NCBI RefSeq assembly: GCF_016820585.1
Contig: NZ_JADHDX010000001.1
Location: forward strand, 248,001 to 312,000
DNA: 64,000 nt
Direction: 5' to 3'
From: Arthrobacter beigongshangensis
GTDB taxonomy: Bacteria > Bacillota > Bacilli > Bacillales_A > Planococcaceae
Below the pieces are notes generated by a model. It saw nothing but the letters and a program-made list of their open reading frames with translations. It was not told the DNA's origin and did not search any database. Both the position numbers and the translations under genes were made by a program. This document shows, in pieces, positions 13,119 to 57,340 of this stretch (positions are counted from its first letter, which is position 1; each line of letters begins with the position of its first letter).

Positions 13119-14177
13119 ATGGAAATGATGATGAAATTGAATGAGAGACGTACGGTTGAACTACTGAAAGAACTGGTGGAGACACCTAGCCCGTCCGGTT
13201 ACACGGAGAAAGTGATGGAACTTATTTCACGACAATTCGATGAAATTGGTATTGCCTATAAAAAAACGAATAAAGGGGCAATTATTGCTACGATTGAGGG
13301 AGGAGATACAGCGCGTCATCGCTTACTTACTGCCCATACAGATACATTAGGTGCGATGGTGAAAGAGATTAAGAGCGACGGTCGTTTGAAATTAACGATG
13401 GTAGGTGGCTTTAACTGGAATGCGGTAGAAGGGGAATATTGCCTCATTCATACGGCAACAGGAAAAGAGGTGCGTGGCACAATTTTAATGCACCAAACAA
13501 CTGTCCATGTGTACAAAAATGCGGGAACCGCGGAACGTAACGCTGATAATATTGAAATTCGCATTGATGAGAGAGTGACAAATGCTGCTGGTACTCGCGC
13601 ACTCGGTATTGAGGTGGGGGATTTCGTATCCTTTGACCCTCGTTTTGAAGTGACGGGAAGTGGGTTTATTAAATCTCGTCATTTGGATGATAAAGCGAGT
13701 ACAGCACTGCTGCTAGAGCTTGTGCGTTCACTACAAGAGCAAGGCACTGTACTGCCACATACAACGCATTTCTATATTTCCAACAATGAAGAGATTGGTT
13801 ATGGAGGCAACTCCAATATTCCAAAGGAAACGGTCGAGTATATCGCAGTTGATATGGGTGCGATTGGTGATGGACAAGCGTCGGATGAATATACGGTGTC
13901 GATTTGTGCCAAGGATTCGAGTGGACCGTATCATTATGCGCTGACGCAGCATTTGACGGGGCTTTGTAAAGTGGGCAATATTCCTTTTAAATTAGATATA
14001 TATCCATACTACGGCTCGGATGCATCTGCCGCGATTCGGGCAGGCTTTGACGTGAAACATGCATTATTTGGACCTGGTATTGAATCGTCACATGCATTGG
14101 AGCGGACACATATTGATTCACTGACAGCGACTGCGCAATTGCTTCACGCATATGTTACTTCAGCGATGATGGACTGA
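13119..14177 (+). CDS. M42-family zinc aminopeptidase
   Basis: 352 aa from ATG 13119 after GTGGAGGAGAGGG. Metal ligands are in HTDTLGAMV (His), the bridging Asp in SRHLDDKASTALLLEL, the catalytic Glu pair in ISNNEEIGYGGN, a further ligand in AVDMGAIGDG, and the C-terminal His in GPGIESSHALERTHID. These are the M42 (tetrahedral-aminopeptidase/FrvX) motifs in order. The enzyme removes N-terminal residues from peptides in the cytosol, or deblocks them. The MurE-type ligase gene begins 14 bases later and is probably in the same transcript. Confidence 0.92.
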   Translation: MEMMMKLNERRTVELLKELVETPSPSGYTEKVMELISRQFDEIGIAYKKTNKGAIIATIEGGDTARHRLLTAHTDTLGAMVKEIKSDGRLKLTMVGGFNWNAVEGEYCLIHTATGKEVRGTILMHQTTVHVYKNAGTAERNADNIEIRIDERVTNAAGTRALGIEVGDFVSFDPRFEVTGSGFIKSRHLDDKASTALLLELVRSLQEQGTVLPHTTHFYISNNEEIGYGGNSNIPKETVEYIAVDMGAIGDGQASDEYTVSICAKDSSGPYHYALTQHLTGLCKVGNIPFKLDIYPYYGSDASAAIRAGFDVKHALFGPGIESSHALERTHIDSLTATAQLLHAYVTSAMMD

Positions 14178-14191
14178 ACGGAGGTTTTTGG

Positions 14192-15682
14192 ATGGATACA
14201 GCAACATTATTGTCAGTATTGACAGTTAAACAAGTGATGGGAGCAGTTCCATCGACGGTGACAGATATCGCGGTTGATTCGCGTGCAGTAAGTGCCGGAG
14301 GGGTTTTCGTTTGCATCGAAGGATTTACAGTCGACGGTCATGATTACGTTGGAAAAGCGATTGACAATGGTGCAAGGGTTATTGTGGCTTCTAAGCCAAT
14401 CGCTGTCGATTTGGACAAAATCGCGGTTGTCACTGTCGACAATACATCACGAGCGATTGGTTTGTTAGCGGCTCGTTTTTACGGGTATCCCTCCAAGCGG
14501 ATGACGATGATTGGTGTGACGGGGACAAATGGTAAGACGAGTGTTAGTGGAATTATTCAAGCTATTTTGCAGCTAGCGGATGAGAAGTCAGCTGCATCGG
14601 GAACCATCGGCTTTAATGTGGCAGGGATGTTGTATGATACGGAAAACACAACGCCAGATACACTGACGACACAGGGAATGATTGCACAGGCGGTAGCTGA
14701 GGGATGTACGACGATGACGATGGAAGTGTCCTCGCATGGGCTTGTGGAAGGGCGTTTAGCTGGCGTTGAATTTGATATTGCCATTTTCACCAACTTGACC
14801 CATGACCATCTTGATTTCCATGGAACGATGGAGGAATATGGACATGCCAAAGGATTGTTATTTTCTCAGCTCGGACAGGATTTGGACAAGCGTAAGTTTG
14901 CGATTGTTAACGCAGACGATGCGTGGAGTGCGAAGTTAAAGGAAATGACGTCGTATCCTATTTTGTCCTATGGGCTCCACAATGATGCAGTGTTCCGTGG
15001 GACAGATATAGTGTTGGCTTCTGATGAAACGTCGTTTACCCTGAATGCACCTGACGGAGAATTTAAAGTCGTCATGCAATTAATTGGTGAATTTAGTGTT
15101 TATAACGCATTGGCGGTCATCGCAGCACTATATGCAAAAGGTATGGCAACGGCGGATATCATCGGCTATCTTGCGCAAGTACCTGCTGTGAAAGGTCGTA
15201 TGGAGCGGGTACAGACTGAGCTGCCGTTAACGATCTATGTCGATTATGCCCATTCACCTGATGCCATTGAAAAAGCCATTGCGGCTGTTCTTCCTTATAA
15301 GAAGGCTAGTAGTAAATTAATTTTTGTCATTGGCACGGGCGGCAACCGGGACCGCTTGAAGCGTCCGATCATGGCGGAGAAAGCATCTGTTGCAGATTAC
15401 GTTATCCTGACAACTGATGACCCGCGTGACGAGCCGTACGAGTCGATTGTCGGAGAATTGGCGGCGGGGATGCAACATGACGCATATGCTTGCATCGGCG
15501 ATCGTGCAGAGGCGGTACGCCATGCCGTTGCCGTTGCAGAACGCGGTGATATGATTATTTTCGCTGGTAAAGGGCATGAGGATTATCAAATCATCGGTTC
15601 AACGAAATACCCGCACTCTGATGCGGAAATTGCGTTGGCAGAGGCAGAGAAGAAATTTGGTACGGGTGTAGTGGAGAAGTAA
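14192..15682 (+). CDS. murE: MurE-type UDP-MurNAc-tripeptide ligase outside the division cluster
   Basis: 496 aa, ATG 14192 after GGAGG. N-terminal UMP-binding domain (VTDIAVDSRAVSAGGVFVCI), central ATPase with P-loop GVTGTNGKTSVSG, substrate motif NTTPDTLTTQGM and SSHGLVEGRL, and C-terminal domain with GTGGNRDRLKRP. It adds the third amino acid of the peptidoglycan stem. The recognition loop reads TTDDPRDEPYE. meso-DAP enzymes carry DNPR and lysine enzymes usually lack that Arg, so specificity is ambiguous; relatives in Planococcaceae often build lysine peptidoglycan. It is not next to murF, mraY or other dcw genes and may be a second copy. Confidence 0.88.
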   Translation: MDTATLLSVLTVKQVMGAVPSTVTDIAVDSRAVSAGGVFVCIEGFTVDGHDYVGKAIDNGARVIVASKPIAVDLDKIAVVTVDNTSRAIGLLAARFYGYPSKRMTMIGVTGTNGKTSVSGIIQAILQLADEKSAASGTIGFNVAGMLYDTENTTPDTLTTQGMIAQAVAEGCTTMTMEVSSHGLVEGRLAGVEFDIAIFTNLTHDHLDFHGTMEEYGHAKGLLFSQLGQDLDKRKFAIVNADDAWSAKLKEMTSYPILSYGLHNDAVFRGTDIVLASDETSFTLNAPDGEFKVVMQLIGEFSVYNALAVIAALYAKGMATADIIGYLAQVPAVKGRMERVQTELPLTIYVDYAHSPDAIEKAIAAVLPYKKASSKLIFVIGTGGNRDRLKRPIMAEKASVADYVILTTDDPRDEPYESIVGELAAGMQHDAYACIGDRAEAVRHAVAVAERGDMIIFAGKGHEDYQIIGSTKYPHSDAEIALAEAEKKFGTGVVEK

Positions 15683-16374: not shown

Positions 16375-17949
16375 ATGGATAAACCTATACAGGAAGAAAT
16401 TGCATCACGGCGCACATTTGCGATTATTTCTCACCCGGATGCTGGGAAAACAACGATTACGGAAAAACTGCTTTATTTCGGCGGTGCAATTCGTGATGCA
16501 GGTACAGTTAAAGGAAAGAAGACAGGGAAATTTGCTACATCTGACTGGATGGAAATCGAGAAACAACGTGGGATTTCGGTGACATCATCTGTTATGCAAT
16601 TCGATTATGACGGCAAGCGTGTTAATATTCTCGACACACCTGGACACGAAGATTTCAGTGAAGACACGTACCGTACGTTAATGGCTGTCGATGCGGCCGT
16701 CATGATGGTCGACTCAGCCAAAGGGATTGAGCCACAAACGATTAAATTATTCAAAGTTTGTCGAATGCGTGGAATTCCTATCTTTACATTCATTAACAAA
16801 ATGGACCGTCAAGGGAAAGAGCCACTTGAGCTGATGGAAGAATTAGAAGAAGTATTAGGCATTGAATCATATGCTATGAACTGGCCAATTGGGATGGGGA
16901 AAGAATTCCTCGGTATTTACGATCGTTTTAATAATCGGATTGAACAAGTGCGCGTGGAAGATGAAAAACGTTTTCTTACGTTGAATGAAGACGGTGGACT
17001 TGCTGAAGACCATCCGATGGCAGAAACATCTTATTATAAACAAGCACTCGAAGACGTTCTTTTACTAAACGAAGCAGGCAATGATTTTGATGAAGAGCGT
17101 GTGGCAAAAGGTGAACTAACACCAGTATTTTTCGGTAGTGCGTTGACAAATTTTGGTGTGCAAACATTTTTAGAAACATTTTTACAATTTGCACCAGCAC
17201 CACAATCGCGTATGACAAAAGATGAAGCAGAAGTAAACCCGTACTCAGAAGAGTTCTCAGGTTTCATCTTCAAAATCCAGGCGAATATGAATCCAATGCA
17301 CAGAGACCGTATCGCATTTGTGCGTATCGTTTCGGGCGCATTTGAACGTGGGATGACGGTGACAGTGCCGCGTATTTCGAAAACATTCAAACTGACACAG
17401 ACGACTCAATTCTTGGCGGATGACCGCGAAACAGTGGATGAGGCTGTAGCTGGCGATATAATTGGTTTGCATGATACGGGGAACTATCAAATTGGGGATA
17501 CAGTCATCGGTGGTAAATCGTCCTTCCAATTCGATGCATTGCCGCAGTTTACACCGGAGCTTTTCGTACGCGTAACGGCGAAAAACGTTATGAAATCGAA
17601 GCATTTCCATAAGGGGATTTTACAGCTTGTACAGGAGGGGGCTATTCAGTATTACCGAACGCTTCATACAGAAGAAGTATTGCTCGGAGCTGTTGGTCAA
17701 CTACAATTTGAAGTGTTCGAGCACCGCATGAAAAACGAGTACAATGTTGAGGTACGTATGGAACACGTCGGCTCGAAAGTAGCGCGCTGGATTGAAAATG
17801 AAAGCGACGTTAAGGATTCCATGACGGGGCAGCGTGCAATGCTTGTGAAAGACCGCTACGATAATTTAGTGTTCTTGTTTGAAAATGACTTCGCAATGCG
17901 TTGGTTCCACGATAAATACCCGGATATCCGGCTGTATAGTTTGTTATGA
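16375..17949 (+). CDS. prfC: Peptide chain release factor 3 (RF3)
   Basis: 524 aa. G1 motif [18 protein letters not shown], switch regions [20 protein letters not shown] and [12 protein letters not shown]3 [17 protein letters not shown]4 INKMDR. Domains II and III follow, with RF3-specific motifs near the C-terminus. It is a translational GTPase that removes RF1/RF2 from the ribosome after peptide release. ATG 16375 is preceded by GAAGGAGACAATATAAA. Monocistronic, terminator at 17953. Confidence 0.97.
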
Positions 17950-17996: not shown

Positions 17997-17999
17997 CAC

Positions 18000-18300
18000 G
18001 GGAGCATTTTCGGTCCGCTTTCGGCGAATTATTCATGGTAGTATTACTGGGGTAGTGGGTGTGGCTAGAAATGACTTCGTCATTCCTAGCCACATCCTTT
18101 TCGGTCATCTTATTGCGAATAATTGCCTGTCGCGTACCTACAATGTTCAAGTGAAAAATGCGGTTGCTTGGGAAGAAGGGAATAGATGACTTTTTATAGA
18201 GCATGTAAGTTCCCGAAGATACAATTTCGGGAACTCTTGCATTTTGTACAATATGTTCCTTTTTTACTTATAACAAAGAAAAAGAACCTAGTGCAGGTCC
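18000..18300. repeat. Structured interspersed repeat, A-type, copy A1
   Basis: Non-coding and related to 56725-57033 and, in its right half, to 35890-36105. Shared blocks are GCATTTTCGGTCCGCTTTCG (A3: GCATTTCCGGTTTACTTTCG), the hairpin 18060-18094, ATGTTCAAGTGAAAA, GGGAAGAAGGGAATAGATGA, and the hairpin 18209-18234. Hairpin 1 is TGTGGCTAG/CTAGCCACA with inner AATGAC-TTC-GTCATT. In A3 the outer stem is GTGTTCCAG/CTGGAGCAC while the inner part is unchanged. Hairpin 2 is GTTCCCGAA/TTCGGGAAC with loop ATTGTATC on the minus strand. The stretch also covers the gap between prfC and the serine hydrolase gene. Confidence 0.85.
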
Positions 18301-18316
18301 TTTTGCAGTATTTGTA

Positions 18317-18346
18317 TTGAACTAAAGCACCCGTTGAACAAGAACA
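18317..18346 (-). repeat. Short palindromic gene-end repeat D1
   Basis: TTGAACTAAAGCACCCGTT then GAACAAGAACA, ending 4 bases beyond the stop codon of the serine hydrolase gene. It aligns with D2 (19430) and D3 (19942). Each lies just past the 3' end of a minus-strand gene. Confidence 0.6.
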
Positions 18347-18349
18347 TAT

Positions 18350-19354
18350 TTACTCTTTAAATGTATCAGCAACTAAATTGCTGAATTCTCTTAAATAATG
18401 AAGGTAATTGTTACCCCCGTAGTTATATTGTTTATTGTACATTTTTGAGACAACAAGATTATATTTAGGAATAACTAATAAAGTCGGACCCGTTACACCT
18501 AATATTTGATAGGAATCTTTAGGCACTCTTTCTCCAATTTCGCTTCTTAACGATGGTGTATCATTCACATACCAAAACAATCCGTTCTGTGGTAAATCTT
18601 TATCTTTATAAGTTGGATTTTGTACTCGGGTAGCTAATTGAATTACTTCTTTTGGAACAACTTGTTTTCCATTTACTACTCCATTATTCAAATGAAGATT
18701 TCCCCATAAAGCAAATTCCCGAGCTGAGGTATGGAGGTTTGAGTCAAAGCCATCATTTGAACTACCTAATTTATATGTAGCAATATCGTTTGGATTATCA
18801 ATTACTTGAACCAATTTTTCATTTGGTCTTGAATGCCAAGCAGTTTCTTTAAAACCTAATGGCAGGAATACCCTCTCTTTGAGTATTTCTGGGAAACTTT
18901 TACCGTAAAGTTTATTTATAAGTTCTGTCATCATTAAAATGTTAATTCCTCTGTAAGCCCATCCCTCACCTGGAGCAAATTCCCTAAAAATAATTCCGTC
19001 CTTTCTCTGGTTTAATCCGTGAGAGTGAGTAACTAAATGCCTTAAAGTTGTTCCTGCAAGGAGTTCCTTATTGAAACTGTCAAAGTAATCGAGTGCATAG
19101 TCATCCAGACTTTTAATTTTACCTTCATATAAAGCATAGGCTATCGCTAAACCTAAGTAACTTTTTCTTGCAGAAGCAACATTAAACTCTGAGGTTTCAG
19201 AAATGGGTATAGTATTTGAATTAGAATGAAATCCACTATAATGTTCTAATACAATACTACCGTCCTTTATTATAACTAATGAAGATGCACTGCTATTATT
19301 GCGTTCCTTTATATCATCTACATACGAAACTAATTTTTGATGAGCATTTACCAT
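18350..19354 (-). CDS. Serine hydrolase, class C beta-lactamase-related
   Basis: 334 aa, no clear signal peptide, so probably cytosolic. The SxxK nucleophile motif is SARK in FNVASARKSYLGLAIAYAL near residue 82, followed by a Tyr-containing YRGINILMM region near 150. SSLVIIKDGSIVLEHYSGF is the usual first strand of the beta-lactamase/PBP4-like fold. Substrate unknown; relatives include esterases and D-amino-peptide hydrolases. It is more A+T-rich than prfC next door and is the last gene of a minus-strand accessory block, which suggests acquisition by transfer. Confidence 0.85.
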   Translation of the reverse strand: MVNAHQKLVSYVDDIKERNNSSASSLVIIKDGSIVLEHYSGFHSNSNTIPISETSEFNVASARKSYLGLAIAYALYEGKIKSLDDYALDYFDSFNKELLAGTTLRHLVTHSHGLNQRKDGIIFREFAPGEGWAYRGINILMMTELINKLYGKSFPEILKERVFLPLGFKETAWHSRPNEKLVQVIDNPNDIATYKLGSSNDGFDSNLHTSAREFALWGNLHLNNGVVNGKQVVPKEVIQLATRVQNPTYKDKDLPQNGLFWYVNDTPSLRSEIGERVPKDSYQILGVTGPTLLVIPKYNLVVSKMYNKQYNYGGNNYLHYLREFSNLVADTFKE

Positions 19355-19429
19355 TCACTACATCCCCTTTAAATGCCTGATTAAGTCTATCTATACCGTA
19401 AATTCTTCAATCAGACAACGTAATCCTTC

Positions 19430-19460
19430 TTGAACTAACCTGCTCCTTTAGTTGAAGAAG
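19430..19460 (-). repeat. Short palindromic gene-end repeat D2
   Basis: TTGAACTAACC-TGCTCC-TTTAGTTGAAGAAG, an imperfect palindrome. It lies between the serine hydrolase start and the stop codon of the membrane-protein gene at 19473. Confidence 0.7.
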
Positions 19461-19472
19461 AAAAAGCGATTT

Positions 19473-19889
19473 TTATTTATCGGTAATTACTATTTTTTTC
19501 GTCTTAAATTTAGAAGAGAAATGAAACATTAATAATATTATAAAGGCGATAATACAAGGATAGCCTATTAGAACAAATGGATTCATATGTTCGACTATGC
19601 TAAACTCCCCCCATTCAAGCCATAAACGCCATCCCATTCCTAAAGCACTAAATATCAAGCAGAGTATAAAAACCAATGATAGTCGTTCTTTAAATAACCC
19701 TTCAAATATATTCGCAACTACAAAATAGATCAAAAGTGTAGTAAATAAGATGTGCCATTTGAATCCTTTTAACCCAGGGATTACAAAAGTAAATGTGATA
19801 CCAGTAAAAAATACAATTGCTATAATACTAAAAATCAAAAAGAATAATGGTTTCTTTTGTACCTGTTCATAAAAATTTTCACCTAACAT
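19473..19889 (-). CDS. Hypothetical four-helix integral membrane protein
   Basis: 138 aa. Membrane segments lie at about residues 15-36, 46-63, 70-88 and 103-124, with a basic C-terminal tail SKFKTKKIVITDK. The ATG at 19889 follows AAAGGAGGCTTAAAGTAA on the minus strand. No catalytic motif and no recognised family. Gene-end repeat D2 follows its stop codon. Confidence 0.75.
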   Translation of the reverse strand: MLGENFYEQVQKKPLFFLIFSIIAIVFFTGITFTFVIPGLKGFKWHILFTTLLIYFVVANIFEGLFKERLSLVFILCLIFSALGMGWRLWLEWGEFSIVEHMNPFVLIGYPCIIAFIILLMFHFSSKFKTKKIVITDK

Positions 19890-19941
19890 TTACTTTAAGC
19901 CTCCTTTGACTTCCATACTCATAATTTTACCATTAATTTTA

Positions 19942-19975
19942 TTCAACTAACCTGTTTCGTTAGTTGAATAAGAAA
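19942..19975 (-). repeat. Short palindromic gene-end repeat D3
   Basis: TTCAACTAAC-CTGTTTC-GTTAGTTGAA followed by TAAGAAA: a 10-bp inverted repeat with a near-perfect arm match. It lies 20 bases beyond the stop of the broken gene at 19996. Confidence 0.75.
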
Positions 19976-19995
19976 TCACATTTTGGTAGATAAAC

Positions 19996-20199
19996 CTATT
20001 CATTATAATCACTTAGGCATTCTTTCATTCTTTTTGCATCAAATGGTAAGTTTCTTTCTAAGAATGTCCATCCAACGAATTGGATTTGCATTGGTAGTTC
20101 AACAAGTCCTGTAATTGCATCCCTTGCATATTTCACTAACTAGCTGCCAAAACGCGTTGCTTTCTTTATTTTTCGGTCCAAGCCTATTACAATTTTCAT
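19996..20199 (-). pseudogene. Broken gene fragment, C-terminal part of an unidentified enzyme
   Basis: The minus frame from 20199 reads a short piece ending KKATRFGS, an in-frame TAG at 20142-20140, then LVKYARDAITGLVELPMQIQ, FVGWTFLERNLPFDAKRMKE and CLSDYNE before the final TAG. The second half looks like a genuine conserved protein end. No full-length frame exists and there is no ribosome binding site. Probably a cassette decayed by truncation and nonsense mutation. I could not identify the parent family. Confidence 0.5.
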
Positions 20200-20258
20200 A
20201 TTGAGGCTTTGAATTCCTTTATTTTTTGTATCAAACCTAATAAATTTTTCAGAGGTAA

Positions 20259-20927
20259 CTAATTATTATGTCGTTTGTTAACTTCAATCGTAATGAACTC
20301 CGGCAAATAGCTGGGAGTACATCCTTTTGCGACTATTTCATCTTTGTAAAGGCCCGTTTTCTCACCAATTTTAATACAACGTGCACGATTCTTTTCATCA
20401 TAAACGCCTATCCAGCCTGCTGTGAAATTCATAGCCCATTGAACTTCCGGTTCTTCCTGCGTAATAGTAGCTTCTATTGCAGATAGCAAGTCTGCGGTGT
20501 TATCAGGCGGTGTTTGTCCAGTCCATCTCAATCGTCCTTGATAATACCAGAAAGCTCGCCTTTGAAGAGCAGAAGGACTATTTCCCCATGACTCCATCAA
20601 TGCAATTTTCTTCTTGTCCTTGGTGAGCTGATTAGCCATTAACCAATCCATTAAGTTATTTCGCTCATCAAAAGTGTGAGTCTGCATATCCTTATCAAGC
20701 TTATTTAGCACATCTTCTGAAAGAAGTTTTTTGTCCATAATTAAGATTGCTAATAGTCTGGGCAAAAATTCTTCGGTTGACCAAAGTTCCATAGCAAGTT
20801 CGTGATCTTTTTTAATGTCCTTCGCGATTTTTCGTAAGTCGCCTAGCTTTGTTTTACTATTGATCTGAGAAAGAATGTTTTCAGCTGTTGAAGATTGTTT
20901 TATTTCCGTATCTTTCTTTTCATCCAT
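20259..20927 (-). CDS. AlkD-like DNA alkylation repair protein
   Basis: 222 aa from ATG 20927 (AAAGGAG 9 bases upstream on the minus strand). All-helical, HEAT-like: LGDLRKIAKDIKKDHELAMELW near residue 33, LLSEDVLNKLDKDM, NNLMDWLMANQLTKDKKKIAL, QRRAFWYYQGRLRW, EVQWAMNFTAGWIGVYDEKN. This pattern is that of the DNA alkylation repair/AlkD family, which removes bulky cationic alkylpurines by capturing the backbone. The catalytic Asp cannot be assigned safely by eye. Located in the minus-strand accessory block. Confidence 0.8.
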   Translation of the reverse strand: MDEKKDTEIKQSSTAENILSQINSKTKLGDLRKIAKDIKKDHELAMELWSTEEFLPRLLAILIMDKKLLSEDVLNKLDKDMQTHTFDERNNLMDWLMANQLTKDKKKIALMESWGNSPSALQRRAFWYYQGRLRWTGQTPPDNTADLLSAIEATITQEEPEVQWAMNFTAGWIGVYDEKNRARCIKIGEKTGLYKDEIVAKGCTPSYLPEFITIEVNKRHNN

Positions 20928-21159
20928 TTTAAACAACTCCTTTTATTTATCTCACGGGATTAACTATCGTCCATTAATCTGCAACTAAGTCCTTCTGAAA
21001 TGGAGGTGGAAATATCCTGTAACGCTTGTTGTTAAAGTCTTTAAACTCCCTAGCTCCGCGGATTCTGTTGCGGGTTTTGTTGCCACAAGCAAGGCAACAA
21101 TCATCTTTTCTTTTCTACAACATCACCCTTATGACAATGGTATTGTTCGGAACACGAGG

Positions 21160-21675
21160 TTACTTCTTATCAGATAATAGCTGGATTTTGAAGATATTTG
21201 TAATGCCTGTGCGGTCGGTTAAAAGTGTGATTGAAACCAAATCACCTTCTGACAAATCAGAAAGCCCGATAACGGCATCCTCCCGATATATACTCACTTC
21301 TCCCCATACATCATATTGAAACTCACCTCGATAATTCTCATCATTGAGGGAAATACCTTCAACCAATATAGAATTCTCGCCAACTTCTTTTACTTCTGCA
21401 TAGAATGTCTGAATATCAGAATGCGACATCACCCATGCATCTTCTTCGTAATCTTTATAGGCATTAACATATCCCGCAAAATAGCTGATTAATATGCCAA
21501 TGAGTAAAACTATTATGGTCATAACAATAGCGACTCTATATGGAGAAACCATTGAAGTACGCTTGCCCTCGGTTGCTCCTATAGTCTTATTGATATGCCG
21601 TTTATAGACTATAATGGTAGCGACAAATATAATTATAATTGCAAACAGTGCAAGAAAATAAATAGGAAACCCCAT
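21160..21675 (-). CDS. Hypothetical membrane-anchored protein
   Basis: 171 aa with two membrane helices (about residues 5-24 and 49-70) separated by a basic loop (YKRHINKTIGATEGKR). An extracytoplasmic beta-rich domain of about 95 residues follows (TFYAEVKEVGENSILVEGIS, GDLVSITLLTDRTGITNIFK), with the look of an OB-like fold similar to DUF3221/YobA proteins. That resemblance is weak. The ATG lies at 21675. Between this gene and the AlkD-like gene (20928-21159) I see no gene, only an 8-bp hairpin TTGTTGCC/GGCAACAA. Confidence 0.7.
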   Translation of the reverse strand: MGFPIYFLALFAIIIIFVATIIVYKRHINKTIGATEGKRTSMVSPYRVAIVMTIIVLLIGILISYFAGYVNAYKDYEEDAWVMSHSDIQTFYAEVKEVGENSILVEGISLNDENYRGEFQYDVWGEVSIYREDAVIGLSDLSEGDLVSITLLTDRTGITNIFKIQLLSDKK

Positions 21676-21710
21676 GTAATTGCCTCCTTGTCGATTAAAC
21701 GAATGATGGA

Positions 21711-22121
21711 TTATTGATTTCTAAAATCAAATTTCTCTTTTGTTACATCCAATAAATGCCCATTAATCACTACTGTATCATTATCAGTCCAAGTGATATT
21801 GGCAGACTCCTCTCTGTAATTCCAATAAATATTTTTCGTTTTATTATTTCTTTGATTAAAGACCAACTCACCTCGAATAGCATATGACACTGTAGCTCCA
21901 CCGTTGGTGACATATGCTTTTAGGGTGTACTTTCCATCAGGAGATATCTCCTCCGTGAGATATTCCCCTGTCGGTAACCTATTCATATCATAGAACGCCC
22001 AATAAACTCCGTAACCAATCAATGCAAAAAACACCTAACCGACTACTGCCAACATTTTTAAGATATTTTTATAAATTTTCTTTTTTTCGTCTTTAATATT
22101 CACTTCTTCTTTAGTTTCCAA
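21711..22121 (-). pseudogene. DUF5412-family protein gene interrupted by an in-frame amber codon
   Basis: A TTG start at 22121 with GAAGGGGGAG upstream opens a frame coding for METKEEVNIKDEKKKIYKNI then LKMLAVVG, a TAG at 22037-22035, and without frame change VFFALIGYGVYWAFYDMNRL and the full DUF5412 body (SPDGKYTLKAYVTNGGATVS, IYWNYREESANITWTDNDTV). The stop falls in the middle of the single membrane helix. Without the stop the product would be 136 aa, normal for the family. It is either a recent pseudogene or a sequencing error. An internal GTG/ATG restart has no ribosome binding site. Confidence 0.75.
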
Positions 22122-22148
22122 AGAAATACTCCCCCTTCTAACATGTAA

Positions 22149-22160
22149 GTTAGTTGAACA
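22149..22160 (-). repeat. Half-site of gene-end repeat (D4)
   Basis: GTTAGTTGAACA matches the right arm of D2 and D3. It lies just upstream of the first gene of the minus-strand block and marks its right edge. Confidence 0.45.
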
Positions 22161-22289
22161 GCAATCCTACTATTTGAAACGTTCTCAATGAGTTATAAGT
22201 TCCATTAATTATATTCCTAATAATTTTGTGAAATATCCATTCGTTGTAATCAAATAGAAACAGAGTTATTTAACATAGCCAAAATAAAA

Positions 22290-22545
22290 ATAGAAAAGCC
22301 CATATTGAAAGCTTCAGCCCCCAAAATTGTATCTTTGGGGGTTCTTATCCATGTAGGAAGTCTTCTATTCATTCGTCAAAAAAAGCGTTAGTACTACGTG
22401 TACCTTTGCCTTTGGAGAGCGACGGATGAAAGACCACCATATTATTACCGAAAAAATGTATAGGGATGCGGCGAAGTCGCATCCCTATACATAAAAAACA
22501 TCTCGGTAATAATATAGAAGTCGTTCAATCCAAAGCGATCCAAAT
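22290..22545. repeat. Structured interspersed repeat, B-type, copy B1
   Basis: Hairpin CCCCCAAA/TTTGGGGG (22318-22325, 22334-22341) with loop ATTGTATC. Then a 137-bp palindromic unit from CCTTTGGAGAGCGACGGATG (22409) to AATCCAAAGCGATCCAAA (ending 22544). Inside are a perfect 13-bp stem ATATTATTACCGA/TCGGTAATAATAT and a perfect 15-bp stem ATGTATAGGGATGCG/CGCATCCCTATACAT. The B2 copy at 57040-57282 has the same plan with different stem sequences. No gene lies between 22160 and 22659. Confidence 0.88.
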
Positions 22546-22659
22546 ATAACTGTACACGAAATGTATAGTATTTGATTTAAAAAAGAGGTTGTCGTTTGAA
22601 GTTGATCTGTTCTTTCAATATGATTAACGAAATGGATAATTGAAGAAAGGGTCGTGCGT

Positions 22660-25600
22660 ATGAAAATTAGTGATTTCTCTATAAAAAGACCTGTATTTAC
22701 GATCGTGACCATGTTTCTCGTTATTATTCTTGGAGCTGTGTCATTTTTTCGCATTCCAGTTACGCTCATTCCAGAGCTGAATCCACCAATTGCGGTCGTT
22801 GTGTCAAGCTATCCGGGAGCATCACCGGCAGAAGTTAGTGAGAAATTAACGAAGCCGCTTGAAAATAGTTTGTCGACTGCTCCCGGATTGAAGTCGATGC
22901 AATCCTCATCGCAGGAAGGCTCGAACTTCATTTTGCTGATGTTCGATTGGTCGACGAATATTGACGATGTGCAGCTTGATATTATGCAGCGCGTGGATCA
23001 AGTGCCTGTTCCAGAAGGAGCCAATAAACCACGGTTTATGAAATTTGATCCGTCTCAGTTTCCGGTCATTCAGTTGTCGTTACGGGCTACAACAGATGAA
23101 GCTGATATTCGGAAAATTGCTGAGCAGCTGGAAACCGAATTGCGACGAACAGAAGGTGTTGCAAGTGTTACTGTGTCGGGAAAATTAGTAGAAGAAGTAC
23201 AAATTATTTTAGATCAACAAAAGCTGGAGTCTAATGGGCTAATACAATCGGATATTGTCCAAATGATTCAAGCGAATCATGTGTCAATGCCGGGTGAGCC
23301 GATTGAGACGCAAGATGGCAAACAGCTGACGACTCGTATATTGAGTACTTTAACGACACTATCCGATATTGAAAATGTCATTGTGAGTACGAATCCGTTA
23401 ACGGGGGACAAAATAACGATTGGGGACGTCGCGGATATCGCTCTTGTGGAAGCGGATTCGGCTACCACAACGCGTGCCAATGATCAGCGAGCCGTTCTGA
23501 TGTCTGTCCTACAAGAATCAGGCTCAAACACAGCGGATGTTTCAACAGCCTTCAAAGAGGCGCTAGACACGCTACTTAAAAAGGATGAGTTTCAAGATGT
23601 TGAATCAGATATTTTGTTTGACCAAGGTGATTACGTCAAGCTAGCCATCAACAATATCGGTCAGTCTCTCGTTTTGGGCGGTATTTTCGCCATGCTTATT
23701 TTGTTCTTGTTCCTACGGGGCATAAAAAGTCCAATTATTATCGGGATTGCCATTCCTTATTCCGTCATTGTGACATTTGTGTTGATGTATTTTGCAAATT
23801 TCTCCCTCAATATTATGACGCTTGGTGCGCTAGCACTTGGTATTGGGATGTTAGTCGATAATGCCATTGTGGTCATTGAAAATATTGAAAGGCATTTAGC
23901 GATGGGCAAGGAGCCGAAACAGGCTGCATTTGATGGGACGAAAGAGGTTGGCGGAGCAATCACGGCTTCGACCTTGACGACATTAGCTGTTTTTGTACCG
24001 GTCATTTTCATCAGCGGCTTGATTGGTCAAATTTTTACGGAGTTTGCCTTAACGATTTCGTTTAGCTTGTTTGCGTCGCTCGTCGTCGCTTTGACAGTTG
24101 TGCCGATGATGGCCGGTCATTTATTGAAGAAGCCAAGAGGCAACATTGAAGCGCGAAGACGTCGCTCGAAAACGTTAGGCACCTTTGAAAGGTCAGTAAG
24201 GTGGGCATTGAAATACCGATTCTCAGTGTTGTTTGTGACAGTGGTTCTGCTTGTACTAAGTGGCTTTGGTTTATTCAAAGTAGGAACTGAATTTTTACCG
24301 GCAACGGACGAAGGGTTTGTGAGTATATCGGTGAAATTGCCGAATGGTTCCTCGCCAACAGCGACAGATGATGTAGTGAAACGCATTGAAGCGCAACTGA
24401 AGGACGAACCGGATGTGGAAGTGTATGTGAGCCTTGTCGGTGGTACGCAGGAAGGTTTGGCACAAGGCTCTTCGAAGGCGAATGTAGCGGAGATCTATGT
24501 TAAGCTTGTGCCGTTAGCAAATCGAGAGCGTTCCATTTTTGAATTCGTCGATGCTGTGCAGCCAAAAGTGCAGAAGGTAGTGGGTGAGGACGCGGAAATT
24601 GGCTTTGCTATGCAAACAGCGGCAGGATCCAGTCCAAATACCTTGACATTTGCATTGAATGATACGGATGAAGCGCGGTTGAATGAAGCTGTAATAGAGT
24701 TAAATGATGCGCTTGTGACACTGGATGCTGTCATGGAAGTAAAAAATAACTTACAAAATACGGTGGATGAAATTCAAATTGAAGTGGACCGTGAAAAGGC
24801 TTCTACTAAAGGCTTAACAGCCTATCAAATTGCACAAACAGTGAATAGTGTGACACGGGGGTCATTTGCTACACAGATTATTGGCGAAAATGATGCGGTA
24901 TTTGGGGTTTATGTGCAATATGATGAGAAATACCGGAATAGCGTGGAGCAGTTGAGAAAATTGAAGCTGCGTACTTCGATGGGGACATTTGTATCGCTTG
25001 GGGAAGTGGCGAAAATCCATATTGCAGAAGGACCGGTGTCCATTCAACGCGTCGATCAAGCGCATTCAGTAACCTTTAATGTGAAATATGAGTCGTCGCA
25101 GACGCTTGGGGATATGACGAAGAAAGTGAATGAAGTGATTGCAGGGCTTGAGATGCCGGAGGAAATTGAACTGACGTATAGTGGCGACAGAGAATTATTT
25201 GATAGTGCCATTGATGACATGCTGATGGCATTAGCGCTTGCGGTAGTGCTCGTTTATATTGTGATGGCGGCACAGTTTGAATCATTCAAGTATCCGTTTG
25301 TCATTATGTTTTCTGTTCCTTTAATGGTCATAGGAGTAGCTGCGGGCTTGTATATGACAAGTACGCCCATTAGTGTGACGGCGATTATCGGGATTCTTGT
25401 TCTTGTTGGAATTGTCGTTAACAACGGGATTGTTCTTGTGGATTATATTAATCAGCGCAAGGAGGCAGGGCTTAGCTCATATGATGCGATCATTGCTTCA
25501 GTAAGGGATCGGGTGCGTCCTATTTTGATGACGGCTTTGACGACGATTCTAGGCTTGCTACCGCTAGCGCTTGGACTAGGGGAAGGAACAGAAATGAATC

Positions 25601-25725
25601 AGCCGATGGGCATTGCCGTCATAGGTGGCTTATTAAGTTCAACATTGCTGACACTGTATGTAGTGCCGATTATGTATAGCTTGTTTGATCGTGAAACAAG
25701 AAGGCGTGCAGTCACGAATAAATGA
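22660..25725 (+). CDS. RND-family efflux transporter permease
   Basis: 1021 aa from ATG 22660 (AAAGGG 8 bases upstream). Classic RND layout: N-terminal helix FSIKRPVFTIVTMFLVIILG, large extracytoplasmic loop, helices 2-6 with GALALGIGMLVDNAIVVIEN (proton-relay Asp region, helix 4), second large loop, helices 8-12 with TAIIGILVLVGIVVNNGIVL and VRPILMTALTTILGLLPLAL. Drives export of hydrophobic compounds by proton antiport. In Bacillales the best-known relative is SwrC/YerP, linked to surfactin self-resistance. No membrane-fusion-protein gene is adjacent. Confidence 0.93.
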   Translation: MKISDFSIKRPVFTIVTMFLVIILGAVSFFRIPVTLIPELNPPIAVVVSSYPGASPAEVSEKLTKPLENSLSTAPGLKSMQSSSQEGSNFILLMFDWSTNIDDVQLDIMQRVDQVPVPEGANKPRFMKFDPSQFPVIQLSLRATTDEADIRKIAEQLETELRRTEGVASVTVSGKLVEEVQIILDQQKLESNGLIQSDIVQMIQANHVSMPGEPIETQDGKQLTTRILSTLTTLSDIENVIVSTNPLTGDKITIGDVADIALVEADSATTTRANDQRAVLMSVLQESGSNTADVSTAFKEALDTLLKKDEFQDVESDILFDQGDYVKLAINNIGQSLVLGGIFAMLILFLFLRGIKSPIIIGIAIPYSVIVTFVLMYFANFSLNIMTLGALALGIGMLVDNAIVVIENIERHLAMGKEPKQAAFDGTKEVGGAITASTLTTLAVFVPVIFISGLIGQIFTEFALTISFSLFASLVVALTVVPMMAGHLLKKPRGNIEARRRRSKTLGTFERSVRWALKYRFSVLFVTVVLLVLSGFGLFKVGTEFLPATDEGFVSISVKLPNGSSPTATDDVVKRIEAQLKDEPDVEVYVSLVGGTQEGLAQGSSKANVAEIYVKLVPLANRERSIFEFVDAVQPKVQKVVGEDAEIGFAMQTAAGSSPNTLTFALNDTDEARLNEAVIELNDALVTLDAVMEVKNNLQNTVDEIQIEVDREKASTKGLTAYQIAQTVNSVTRGSFATQIIGENDAVFGVYVQYDEKYRNSVEQLRKLKLRTSMGTFVSLGEVAKIHIAEGPVSIQRVDQAHSVTFNVKYESSQTLGDMTKKVNEVIAGLEMPEEIELTYSGDRELFDSAIDDMLMALALAVVLVYIVMAAQFESFKYPFVIMFSVPLMVIGVAAGLYMTSTPISVTAIIGILVLVGIVVNNGIVLVDYINQRKEAGLSSYDAIIASVRDRVRPILMTALTTILGLLPLALGLGEGTEMNQPMGIAVIGGLLSSTLLTLYVVPIMYSLFDRETRRRAVTNK

Positions 25726-35879: not shown

Positions 35880-35889
35880 TTTTAGATTT

Positions 35890-36105
35890 GTCGATTATCC
35901 TGTTGTGCATCATCTCCTGCCGCAAACCTCCAATGCTGAAGTGGAAAGTGCAGGTACTGAGAAAGAAAAGAAGTGATAACATTGTTAAAGTGTGTAAGTT
36001 CCCGAAGATACAATTTCGGGAACTATTGCACATTGAACAAAGCATTTACTTCTTAATTTTGCGTAACTTTTCTAAGAAATTGATAGGATTTAAAATAAGA
36101 AAGGG
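35890..36105. repeat. Structured interspersed repeat, A-type, copy A2 (left half missing)
   Basis: Begins at TCGATTATCCTGTTGTGCAT (56818 in A3 reads TCGATTATCCTATTGTACAT) and runs with high identity to A3 through AACCTCCAATGCTGAAGTGG, hairpin 35998-36023 (GTTCCCGAA/TTCGGGAAC), TTACTTCTTAATTTTGCGTA and AAAATAAGAAAGGGAA. It lies between the dehydrogenase gene and ykyB. The left hairpin of the element is absent. Confidence 0.85.
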
Positions 36106-36135
36106 AACCACTCCGGAATTCGGTATGTGGTTCTC
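36103..36135 (-). terminator. Terminator of ykyB
   Basis: GAACCAC (36105-36111) pairs with GTGGTTC (36127-36133). Read on the minus strand the second arm is followed by CCTTTCTTATTTT. It occupies the place of the ATTGTATC-loop hairpin in the B-type repeat. Confidence 0.7.
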
Positions 36136-47552: not shown

Positions 47553-48959
47553 ATGGCTGGGAAATCACTACTAACAAAGTATGTCCGTAAAGCGTTGACA
47601 CGACTTCGTTTTGAAAGGGCTGTCCATACGTTACAAACAGGTTTGTTTATGGCTGTATTGTTCGCCTTACTTGTTGTTGCGGCTTCTAGATTGTTCGTGC
47701 TACCTCATTATGGACGATTCGCTTGGATTGTCGCAGTGATTACTGTCGCGGCAACAATTATTTTTATCATTTACAAACGTCTACGAAAAAGTGATGCCGT
47801 TCACAGGCTTGATAGTTATATGCCGGACAATCTACTAATTACTGCATTGGATGATAAAATCGGTGAAACGCATCTAGCTTCGGCGCTTATTGTCGCAGCG
47901 GAGTCGAAAATCTACCCGGCATTCGAAGGCTTTAAAAAGAGAAATAAGCAGTATTTCAATGTGAAGATGCTTGCGGGTATCGCGGTCGCATCAGGTTGCC
48001 TGGCAGTTCTACTTATTTTCCCTTCTGAAGCACAACTAGAGGCGAAAGCCGTTGTTAAAGAAAAAGAAGTGATTGAGGAAGTAAAGAAGGAAATAAAGGA
48101 ATTGGTCAAAAAAGAGCCACTTCCTGAGGTGAAAAAAGAATTGCAGGACCTTGCGGAAAAATTACTAACTGCAGAACTTACTGAAGATGTATTGAAAGAG
48201 CTTGTCAAAAAACAGAAGGAGTTGCGTCTGAAAGAACAACGCCTTGCTGAGAAAAAAGAAGCCGCCGACAAGTCTGATAATCCTGCTGATGCTTTAACCG
48301 AGGTGGAAGAGCAAGAACTTAAGGAGCTTGGCAAGTTAGTGGATCAACTAGCCCAAAATCTAGGAAAAGCTCATAGCGCATTGAATCAGGTAGGAAAAGC
48401 ACCAACATTACCAGCACTAGCAGGTGCAAATGCATCACCGTCAGCGACAGATGGTAAAGCAGGTACTGCAAGTGGTGAAGGTACAGGCGAGGCAACTGGC
48501 GGAGGCGAGGGACAAAGTCAAGGTGAAGGACAAGGACAGAGCCAAGGTCAAGGTCAAGGTCAGGGACAAGGTCAAGGACAGGGACAAGGACAGGGACAGG
48601 GGCAAGGGCAAGGACAAGGACAAGGACAAGGACAAGGACAAGGACAAGGACAAGGACAAGGACAAGGACAGGGTCAAGGGCAAGGACAAGGCCAAGGGTC
48701 AGGAGGGCGCAATTTGTTATCGGTTCCTTACAATCGTATTGGCGAAAAAGGTGACCCTTCGGTTGTAGGTGGCAATCTAGGTGAAGGTGATTTCATCGAA
48801 GAGCGTGAAGCGCAAGGACCAGTAGAGAAAGGGACCATTCGTCCTTATCAAGAGGTAGTTGGTGACTATAAAGATTCTTACTTAAAAAGTTCTGAGAAGA
48901 TGAAGCTACCGCCAGATTTACAGCATATTCTTTCAGATTATTTTTCTTCGATTGAATGA
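47553..48959 (+). CDS. Membrane coiled-coil protein with Gly-Gln repeat (operon gene 4)
   Basis: 468 aa, ATG 47553 after AAGGGGGTAGGCGA. Three membrane helices (about 27-50, 56-75, 133-152). A highly charged coiled coil (about 160-255, with repeated KKEIKEL and KKELQDL heptads), a Gly/Ala/Thr linker, then a repeat of about 70 residues of alternating Gly and Gln (about 320-388). The conserved-looking end has RPYQEVVGDYKDSYLKSSEK and LPPDLQHILSDYFSSIE. That C-terminal motif recalls proteins encoded in MoxR/VWA operons of other phyla. The repeat is encoded by hexanucleotides, so its length can vary without frameshift. Function unknown, probably a scaffold. Confidence 0.85.
   Translation: MAGKSLLTKYVRKALTRLRFERAVHTLQTGLFMAVLFALLVVAASRLFVLPHYGRFAWIVAVITVAATIIFIIYKRLRKSDAVHRLDSYMPDNLLITALDDKIGETHLASALIVAAESKIYPAFEGFKKRNKQYFNVKMLAGIAVASGCLAVLLIFPSEAQLEAKAVVKEKEVIEEVKKEIKELVKKEPLPEVKKELQDLAEKLLTAELTEDVLKELVKKQKELRLKEQRLAEKKEAADKSDNPADALTEVEEQELKELGKLVDQLAQNLGKAHSALNQVGKAPTLPALAGANASPSATDGKAGTASGEGTGEATGGGEGQSQGEGQGQSQGQGQGQGQGQGQGQGQGQGQGQGQGQGQGQGQGQGQGQGQGQGQGQGQGQGSGGRNLLSVPYNRIGEKGDPSVVGGNLGEGDFIEEREAQGPVEKGTIRPYQEVVGDYKDSYLKSSEKMKLPPDLQHILSDYFSSIE
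48511..48706 (+). repeat. Hexanucleotide (GGNCAR) coding microsatellite
   Basis: About 30 six-base units encoding Gly-Gln. Between about 48611 and 48669 they are perfect GGACAA copies in tandem (nine or so); toward the edges they vary at third positions (GGTCAA, GGACAG, GGGCAA). Perfect central copies suggest recent slippage, in steps that keep the reading frame. Confidence 0.95.
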
Positions 48960-56496: not shown

Positions 56497-56724
56497 TCCT
56501 ATCCCAACTTTCCGAAATGTTTCGTGTTACTAAAGTATCGTACCATAAACTGTATATGAACACACCATTAATAGATTTAGGATTGTGGGGGAGTAGAATA
56601 ACAAAAAGCAGTGGACACACGAAGGCGCCAGCTGCTTTCCATTAATTCATCACTTCTGTAGATTAACCGCTGAATTATAATTACACCTAGCCAGCAAGAA
56701 ATATAAAATGGCCTGTTTACTAGG

Positions 56725-57033
56725 CATTTCCGGTTTACTTTCGGCAATAGATGGACGACAGAATAACCGCAAGAATCGTGTTCCAGCAATGACTCCGTCA
56801 TTACTGGAGCACCGTTCTCGATTATCCTATTGTACATCAATGCCTATCACAAACCTCCAATGCTCAAGTGAAAAGTGCAGGTACTTAGGAAGAAAAGAAT
56901 AGATGACATTGTTAAAGTGTGTAAGTTCCCGAAGATACAATTTCGGGAACTATTGCACATTGAACAAAGCAGTTACTTCTTAATTTTGCGTAACATTTCT
57001 AAGAAAGCTATCGAATTTAAAATAAGAATGGGA
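56725..57033. repeat. Structured interspersed repeat, A-type, copy A3 (complete)
   Basis: Left block GCATTTCCGGTTTACTTTCG; hairpin 56778-56812 (GTGTTCCAG/CTGGAGCAC around AATGAC-TCC-GTCATT); TCGATTATCCTATTGTACAT; AACCTCCAATGCTCAAGTG; hairpin 56925-56950 (GTTCCCGAA/TTCGGGAAC, loop ATTGTATC on the minus strand); TTACTTCTTAATTTTGCGTA; AATTTAAAATAAGAATGGGA. It is directly continuous with the B-type unit at 57040. Short open frames inside have no start signals. Nothing else is seen between the MFS gene (56496) and this element. Confidence 0.88.
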
Positions 57034-57039
57034 AACAGG

Positions 57040-57282
57040 ATGGAGATAGCGGTAGCCGCCAAAATTGCATCTTTGGCGGCTTTTATAAAGTTAGAATTCC
57101 TCTATTCTTTTATGCCCGAAAGCATTGGTGTTTTATGAAGTATTTCCTTTGGAGAGCGACGGATGAACGGCTGTCATACGATTGCCGAAAAGTTGATTGG
57201 GGATGTGACGCAGTCACATCCCCAATCATAAAAATAGGTCGGTTATTGTATAGTGGCCGTTCATTCCAAAGCGTTCCAAAGG
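57040..57282. repeat. Structured interspersed repeat, B-type, copy B2
   Basis: Hairpin GCCGCCAAA/TTTGGCGGC (57055-57063, 57072-57080) with loop ATTGCATC. Then a 137-bp palindromic unit from CCTTTGGAGAGCGACGGATG (57146) to CATTCCAAAGCGTTCCAAAG (57281). The inner stem is TGATTGGGGATGTGA/TCACATCCCCAATCA (57194-57208, 57214-57228), and the middle stem is ATACGATTGCCGA/TCGGTTATTGTAT. B1 at 22290 has the same plan, with different stem bases that still pair. Confidence 0.88.
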
Positions 57283-57340
57283 AATAAAATACAATAAGTC
57301 ACAACTATTTTAAGTTATTTTTGGTTAATCAACAGACGTG

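Follow-up and report, generated by a model that had tools for sequence, protein, structure and literature searches.

A split IS4-type MITE at a prfC–RND locus and a candidate orphan cassette array, probably served by an Xer-like recombinase

The DNA analysed here (the window; 64,000 nucleotides, contig NZ_JADHDX010000001.1, positions 248,001 to 312,000) comes from a Sporosarcina genome, designated G000 in the comparisons. Between prfC, which has an orthologue in 60 of the 61 genomes searched, and an RND efflux pump gene lie two repeat units, A1 and B1, in the same orientation and separated by ~4 kb of minus-strand genes (Table 1). Both are full matches to their nhmmer profiles (profile positions 2–279 and 3–300, respectively), and an adjoining pair is present elsewhere in the window (A, 56719–56992; B, 57018–57320). 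These profile searches bear out the first-pass annotation, which had described the two units as adjacent once and split by accessory genes once. The A+T-rich joint that it had reported before B is likewise recognisable at both copies (AAAATAAAAATAG at ~22283 and AAAATAAGAATGG at ~57019). A1 is fused to the T-run of the prfC terminator, and the identical fusion is found in the sister genome G014.

Table 1. Features of the prfC–RND locus and of the intact element in the window
Feature	Position	Strand	Evidence
prfC (RF3), left anchor	16375–17949	+	Pfam RF3_C, GTP_EFTU
A half (A1) without terminal inverted repeat	17998–18276	+	nhmmer E=2e-73
Left array edge: terminator-like hairpin and terminal site	18277–18335	+	similar edges in G014, G065 and G078
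Cassette 1: serine hydrolase, beta-lactamase family	18350–19354	-	PF00144, E=2e-36
Site core AACTAAC-CTGCTCC-TTTAGTT	19433–19453	+	exact pattern match; 37-bp site 19425–19461
Cassette 2: small membrane protein	19473–19889	-	ORF
Site core AACTAAC-CTGTTTC-GTTAGTT	19945–19965	+	exact pattern match; 37-bp site 19937–19973
AlkD-like DNA alkylation repair gene	20259–20936	-	PF08713
Accessory gene, no Pfam family above cut-off	21160–21675	-	ORF
DUF5412 gene	21711–22034	-	PF17428, E=2e-46
Right array edge GTT^AGTTGAACAG... with conserved tail (GTTCTCAATGAGTTATAAGTTCCATTAATT)	22149–22213	+	edge common to other genomes
B half (B1) without terminal inverted repeat	22281–22578	+	nhmmer E=2e-71
RND efflux pump, right anchor	22654–25725	+	PF00873
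Intact MITE, A and B adjacent, terminal inverted repeats	56651–57340	+	target duplication TTAATTCAT/TTATTTCAT, 8/9 identity

The adjoining pair belongs to an intact element that exceeds the length given in the first-pass annotation. A and B are distant inverted copies of one another, and together form a unit of roughly 690 bp with ends CACGTCTGTTGATTAACC and 9-bp target duplications (9/9 in five copies, 8/9 in two). In the congener G006 the same ends flank a 382-aa DDE_Tnp_1 protein, giving an IS4Sa-like, 1.3-kb autonomous partner. The IS4Sa subgroup is characterised by ends of the form CA......T and by 9-bp duplications (PMC2266710). For MITEs of this kind, terminal inverted repeats and duplications of 8–10 bp are expected. 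Judged by its ends, duplications and partner, all of which it shares with IS4Sa-type MITEs, A/B is a MITE of the IS4 family, IS4Sa subgroup, although its interior, built of two inverted-related halves, is unusually long and structured. An Rfam scan of the window returned tRNA only, and thus no known RNA family covers A/B. The window genome holds about 17 full-length A/B copies, yet the best match among contiguous full elements is the same for A1 and, independently, for B1 (C4:52368-52905; 81% and 82%), so that the pairing of the two lies far beyond chance. The terminal repeats of A1/B1 have been lost: no match to them was found near 18.0 or 22.6 kb, and the sole matches within the window are at 56.7–57.3 kb.

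The genes between A1 and B1 are accompanied by a 37-bp near-perfect inverted repeat (the site), in which a 7-bp asymmetric spacer separates two inverted arms. Two intact copies are present, and at the left edge the right side of the terminal site (AACTAAAGCACCC^GTT, 18320–18335) has decayed. The relatives of this edge in G014, G065 and G078 have other genes to their right; the right edge is of identical type in G014, G002, G065, G078 and G011. A DNA relative of cassette 2 (78–79%) is found in G033 (S. luteola), in a region of C42 that is rich in sites, though none lies directly beside the relative. The alkD gene was considered as a cassette and rejected: copies 88–95% identical occur in most other species, at loci without adjacent sites, and the gene is probably not a cassette. 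Given that no intact site is present in the right part of the cargo (20.0–22.1 kb) and that alkD is found elsewhere without sites, the window cargo cannot all be classed as cassettes. A database search for the cargo on plasmids gave weak gene-level matches only, and no close relative of the recombinase described below was found in the window genome. The window array is an orphan and partly decayed one, with two intact sites and decayed edge sites.

The comparison with G014, which we treat as decisive, shows that there too A and B occupy this prfC–RND site, with different genes between them. On the left, homology between G000 and G014 ends at the GTT of a 37-bp site (window 18335); on the right, it returns at the GTTAGTT of another site (window 22149); between both breakpoints there are site-sized matches only. 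In most congeners the prfC–RND gap is empty and has neither half, and in G064 the locus is rearranged and retains part of A only. Among the related genomes compared, independent insertion of A1 and B1, which would have argued against a common origin, was not seen. The earlier proposal that A1 and B1 are halves of one element with DNA inserted between them therefore stands, their common site in G014 being in its favour, and gene capture does appear to be involved; its further suggestion that A and B form the capture system does not hold, A/B being a MITE. The gene-capture machinery is not the A/B element, and most such arrays in other genera have no A/B flanks. Rather, the shared breakpoints suggest that cargo has been exchanged at separate recombinase sites inside the MITE, leaving different gene sets between common flanks.

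Movement of A, cargo and B as one unit had also been envisaged, and corresponds to a transposon reading in which a nonautonomous IS4-type transposon, with A and B as its ends, picked up passengers and carried them along, like the mobile insertion cassettes (MICs) of the IS231 group. In its favour, A and B lack nothing but their tips and are members of one subfamily, and a search for other A-cargo-B arrangements yielded a second example (C1:348955-351213) and a 17-kb TIR-A..10 sites..A-TIR arrangement in G031. In MIC231 (IS231/IS4 family), too, IS4-family ends flank passenger genes with no transposase. A MIC, however, has intact IS ends and a target duplication; A1/B1 lack the former, and the 17-kb unit of G031, which we rejected as a transposon, has no matching duplication. 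Furthermore, the cargo of G014 differs while A and B stay, its breakpoints coincide with internal recombinase sites and not with transposon ends, and the similar array edges of G065 and G078 have no MITE halves. We consider transposition as a unit improbable, and nothing in the comparison points to it at A1/B1.

Of the 68 genus genomes, 30 contain the site pattern, which reaches a maximum of 77 sites per genome in a related genus; the reversed pattern, used as a control, is almost absent. Each array has a single site orientation. Flanking genes mostly read towards the site (288/367 on one side, 288:79; 304/370 on the other, 304:66), which places it at their 3′ end. The proposed join point is the spacer end, CTGCNNC^GTTAGTT. 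In G031, two places with unrelated flanks share one cassette, at 100% identity over 503 bp. Within the spacer, core positions 11 and 12 are variable, an unusual feature for a simple exchange of the Cre or Xer type. A more ordinary explanation is an accessory-gene hotspot with unrelated insertions and deletions, in which the palindromes are terminators or REP-like repeats with no mobile role. The position of the sites near gene 3′ ends and the amount of cargo without an intact site would fit this. Yet the two breakpoints between G000 and G014 coincide with one and the same base of the site, and a composition check found no T-run after the site on either strand. The arms are strongly conserved in sequence, their variable positions pairing no better, or barely better, than shuffled ones, and the sites hold a fixed orientation towards one recombinase with a conserved attI-like half-site. 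A mere hotspot is thus very improbable.

The recombinase is a conserved 281-aa tyrosine recombinase, with Y265 as its catalytic Tyr, found within arrays of Sporosarcina, Psychrobacillus, Lysinibacillus and others. At 22 loci a conserved attI-like site, GTTAGTaaaaatacacc.., lies 76–83 nt (about 77) from its start codon; conservation extends from the GTT up to the start codon, while the mean on the cassette side is 0.24 bits, each locus having other DNA joined to its attI-like site. In loci that encode the close subfamily, all sites to which an orientation could be assigned face one way with respect to the recombinase. At least four sites occur in each of the 10 genus genomes that have this subfamily, as against 7 of the 58 without it (Fisher 7e-8). 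In Sporosarcina psychrophila, recombinase, attI-like site and sites occur together on a plasmid. A consensus scan for a promoter reading from attI into the cassettes gave nothing above shuffles.

This layout resembles that of an integron, seemingly assembled from unrelated parts. As in integrons, a tyrosine recombinase gene adjoins a fixed attachment site, mostly single-gene cassettes form a one-way array with sites at their 3′ ends, and the exchange point lies beside a GTT. Orphan arrays without a recombinase are comparable to CALIN (PMC9024848), where a single complete integron, that of Limnochorda pilosa, is reported for all the Firmicutes covered. A true integron (IntI with attC) missed by annotation tools would account for the shared layout. 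IntI integrases form a subfamily marked by an insertion in the catalytic domain. However, the recombinase scores 91 bits against TIGR02249, the IntI model (cut-off 265), below a chromosomal Xer control (125), and is by this measure Xer-like and not of the IntI subfamily; in a tree of these recombinases with CodV/XerD proteins, they form one clade apart from the latter. Whereas attC sites fold as imperfect hairpins of single-stranded DNA, conserved in structure and not in sequence, the 37-bp sites are near-perfect inverted repeats with a 7-bp spacer and no arm covariation. We tried the attC-like hairpin as a model for the site and rejected it, since the arms vary independently of each other, in single sites as well as from one cassette end to the other. 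The host group, Bacillales, also differs. A missed integron is barely credible.

In Xer/dif (pdif) modules, genes are bounded by short two-arm Xer-type sites on which a simple tyrosine recombinase acts. The present arrays are similar in that two-arm Xer-type sites bound genes, but here a dedicated recombinase and its attI-like site are part of the arrays, and the sites all share one orientation. Because this dedicated family lies inside the arrays, action of host XerC/XerD on dif-like sites is unlikely.

We propose, with a probability of about 0.8 on evidence that is entirely comparative sequence, that the locus is an IS4Sa-type MITE housing an orphan cassette array served by an Xer-like recombinase. 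Insertion of the MITE into the prfC–RND gap would predate the split of the window strain from G014, and loss of its terminal repeats would have followed; a small cassette array, bounded by the 37-bp sites, would then have lodged in its middle. The dedicated recombinase, encoded elsewhere in related genomes beside the attI-like site, would catalyse the joining of cassettes at the spacer end, presumably through circular intermediates, and insertion could take place beside either attI or an orphan edge site, with cassettes being lost or swapped between sites. At the window locus the enzyme would come from outside the genome and act in trans.

More broadly, it seems probable that Bacillales hold a cassette-capture system of their own, in which an Xer-derived recombinase and double-stranded inverted-repeat sites, evolved apart from IntI/attC, exchange accessory genes between the chromosomes and plasmids of soil Bacillales, including via orphan arrays in MITEs. 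We found no published description of such a system in the open-access literature searched. Firmicutes are considered nearly devoid of integrons; if correct, this reading would add another way of capturing cassettes, seemingly of independent origin, and show its minimum parts: one small recombinase, one fixed half-site and one repeated site. It would also account for the large variable-gene pool of Sporosarcina, Psychrobacillus and Lysinibacillus, supply a signature for surveys, and make it possible to test directly if evolution of the integron type depends on the folding of single-strand hairpins or if this is one route among others. For more distant, type II relatives of the recombinase (about 60–65% identity), no repeated inverted repeat was found in three loci, and their genomes have few or no sites of the present kind, a point against the proposal. 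The predicted structure of the recombinase has a mean pLDDT of 81 and a pTM of 0.55.

Comparison of the prfC locus at 30 congeneric loci, which the first-pass annotation had proposed as a check, revealed that in most of them the RND gene lies no more than a few hundred bases past prfC with neither A nor B, and that the sister genome G014 (99% in prfC) has both halves at the same place as the window genome, a 3.65-Mb draft of a Sporosarcina species, with two different small minus-strand genes in the A-B interval. When the window is aligned with G014, homology extends across A as far as AACTAAAGCACCCGTT, ends at 18335, restarts at GTTAGTT (22149) and continues into B, with site-sized matches only between the two points; this implies that the A+B element and the flanks of the insert predate the split of the two genomes, and that the contents changed at two defined points. 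In genome G064 the region is rearranged, with part of A beside the RND gene, and the prfC-RND gap (L102, 2990–3310) is filled by a tandem family with units like GGTAGTCGAGTTTGCCAAAAG. G014 also has, between its B half and its RND gene (L101, 5090–6585), an ORF whose product by eye resembles an IscB-type RRXRR/HNH protein; it follows a structured-looking leader and directly precedes the RND start codon.

Both window/G014 breakpoints belong to a 37-bp inverted repeat, TCTTATTCAACTAAC-CTGCNNC-GTTAGTTGAATAAGA, the spacer of which varies at two positions. Thirty of 68 genus genomes contain the core pattern, whereas the backwards-read control pattern is almost absent; across a class-wide sample the core clusters in the same family, one genome having as many as 77 copies. 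Sites have a median spacing of 1.1 kb, and the genes beside them mostly read toward the site (288/367 on one side, 304/370 on the other), placing it at their 3′ end. In the window, the sites at the edges of the array are decayed; two others are intact.

Coordinates of the A and B halves and of exact sites in the window genome
Feature	Position	Remark
A half	17998-18276	same orientation as B; profile of each half
B half	22281-22578	same orientation as A; profile of each half
Intact site core	19433-19453	window
Intact site core	19945-19965	window
Further exact site	C34:129266	sole one in the window genome besides the window's two

A conserved tyrosine recombinase (279–281 residues) is encoded within arrays, both in a number of Sporosarcina genomes and in two further genera; a scan of named genomes located it in Psychrobacillus, Lysinibacillus, Solibacillus, Viridibacillus and Paenisporosarcina, with more distant relatives in Neobacillus, Litchfieldia, Peribacillus and others. 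At least four sites are present in 10/10 genus genomes with the recombinase subfamily versus 7/58 others (Fisher, 7e-8), and at loci with the close subfamily all orientable sites share one direction relative to the recombinase. The GTT of a fixed, attI-like site lies 76–83 nt from the recombinase start codon. Across 22 recombinase loci conservation extends from GTTAGT up to the gene, whereas the far side is essentially random except for the site's left arm (0.24 bits), a contrast of the kind that insertion time and again at a single point is expected to leave. In G031 one cassette occurs at two places, 100% identical over 503 bp, with unrelated flanks. The best reading of the sequences is site-specific cassette exchange by the recombinase at CTGCNNC^GTTAGTT. 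The enzyme would act at the attI beside its own gene and also in trans on orphan sites such as the window's; we infer its catalysis, the action in trans and circular intermediates. On plasmid pSP10-266k of Sporosarcina psychrophila the recombinase is accompanied by the attI-like site and by cassette sites, so that the plasmid provides a way from cell to cell; merA and merR (mercury resistance) lie at 13219–15304 (L285), just outside a cassette site at 15381. Type II relatives of the recombinase (~62–65% identity) are found in genomes where known sites are few or absent, and no cassette sites were identified for those at L280, L281 and L282 (G069, G316 and G067).

The array system works like an integron, yet misses two defining features. 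The recombinase fails TIGR02249 (91 bits versus a cut-off of 265; a chromosomal Xer control scores 125) and scores close to the cut-off of the XerA-like model NF040815. Among solved structures it is closest to XerA, XerC and XerD, and in a tree built without IntI the recombinases group as a clade with full support, away from the CodV and XerD proteins. Integron attC sites conserve a folded shape; in contrast, the sites described here conserve sequence, and pairing between their variable arm positions is at most marginally above that of shuffled ones. A true integron is judged unlikely on these two grounds. One complete integron only, from Limnochorda pilosa, is reported in Firmicutes (PMC9024848), and we found no description of an integron-like system in Bacillales in the open-access literature, the scope of our search.

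About 17 full-length A+B copies align end to end, the intact ones measuring about 690–730 bp between CACGTCTGTTGATTAACC inverted repeats. Target duplications are perfect 9-mers in five copies and match at 8/9 positions in two, including the window copy at 56651–57340. In congener G006, elements of 1.3 kb share these ends, are flanked by 9-bp duplications and encode a 382-residue DDE_Tnp_1 transposase; the ends (CA......T), size and 8–10 bp duplications fit the IS4Sa subgroup (PMC2266710). Together, these features indicate that A+B is a MITE. Copies in opposite orientation align, so A and B are themselves related as inverted copies.

The first-pass annotation's description of A and B halves flanking genes is borne out by the profile of each half and by the fact that one contiguous copy, C4:52368-52905, is the nearest in the genome to both separated halves (81% to A1 and 82% to B1), and the AAAATAANAAT joint that it recognised before B was found at both B copies. 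Terminal repeats are absent from A1 and B1, and both the window genome and G014 have the left edge of the A half joined directly to the prfC terminator's T-run. Similar array edges occur in G065 and G078, where MITE halves are absent, and the right edge is also present in G002 and G011; the edges thus belong to the array. The MITE appears to be where the array landed in the ancestor shared by the window genome and G014. MITE halves likewise enclose some arrays of G031, but MITEs are common in that genome and the arrays of other genera are without them, so any functional link between the two is at most hypothetical. Only the left cassettes of the window cargo are firmly assigned, because intact sites are missing from the right half, and the alkD gene there has, in most other species, locations that are not near sites.

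A further A-cargo-B arrangement, of the kind that the first-pass annotation suggested looking for, is present in the window genome outside the window (L031, C1:348955-351213); there, on the minus strand, 1.7 kb with two small genes separates B from A, and both cassette sites and obvious terminal repeats are absent. In G031, ten cassette sites lie in a 17-kb stretch (C2:112027-129097) enclosed by A halves in inverted orientation and by MITE ends that are imperfect, with no target duplication. In four site pairs on the same contig the sites are only 47–61 bp apart (42239/42300, 77042/77101, 77919/77978 and 120201/120248), each with one CTGCNNC and one GCACC-type spacer, as if they were gene-less mini-cassettes or composite sites. 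Within the window, a fragment of inner A and beyond (35886–36110), 89% identical to MITE copy positions 56815–57037 and without terminal repeats, overlaps the start of an ORF, and a long GQGQ-coding repeat of 13 overlapping copies (48474–48731) lies within ORF 47553–48959.
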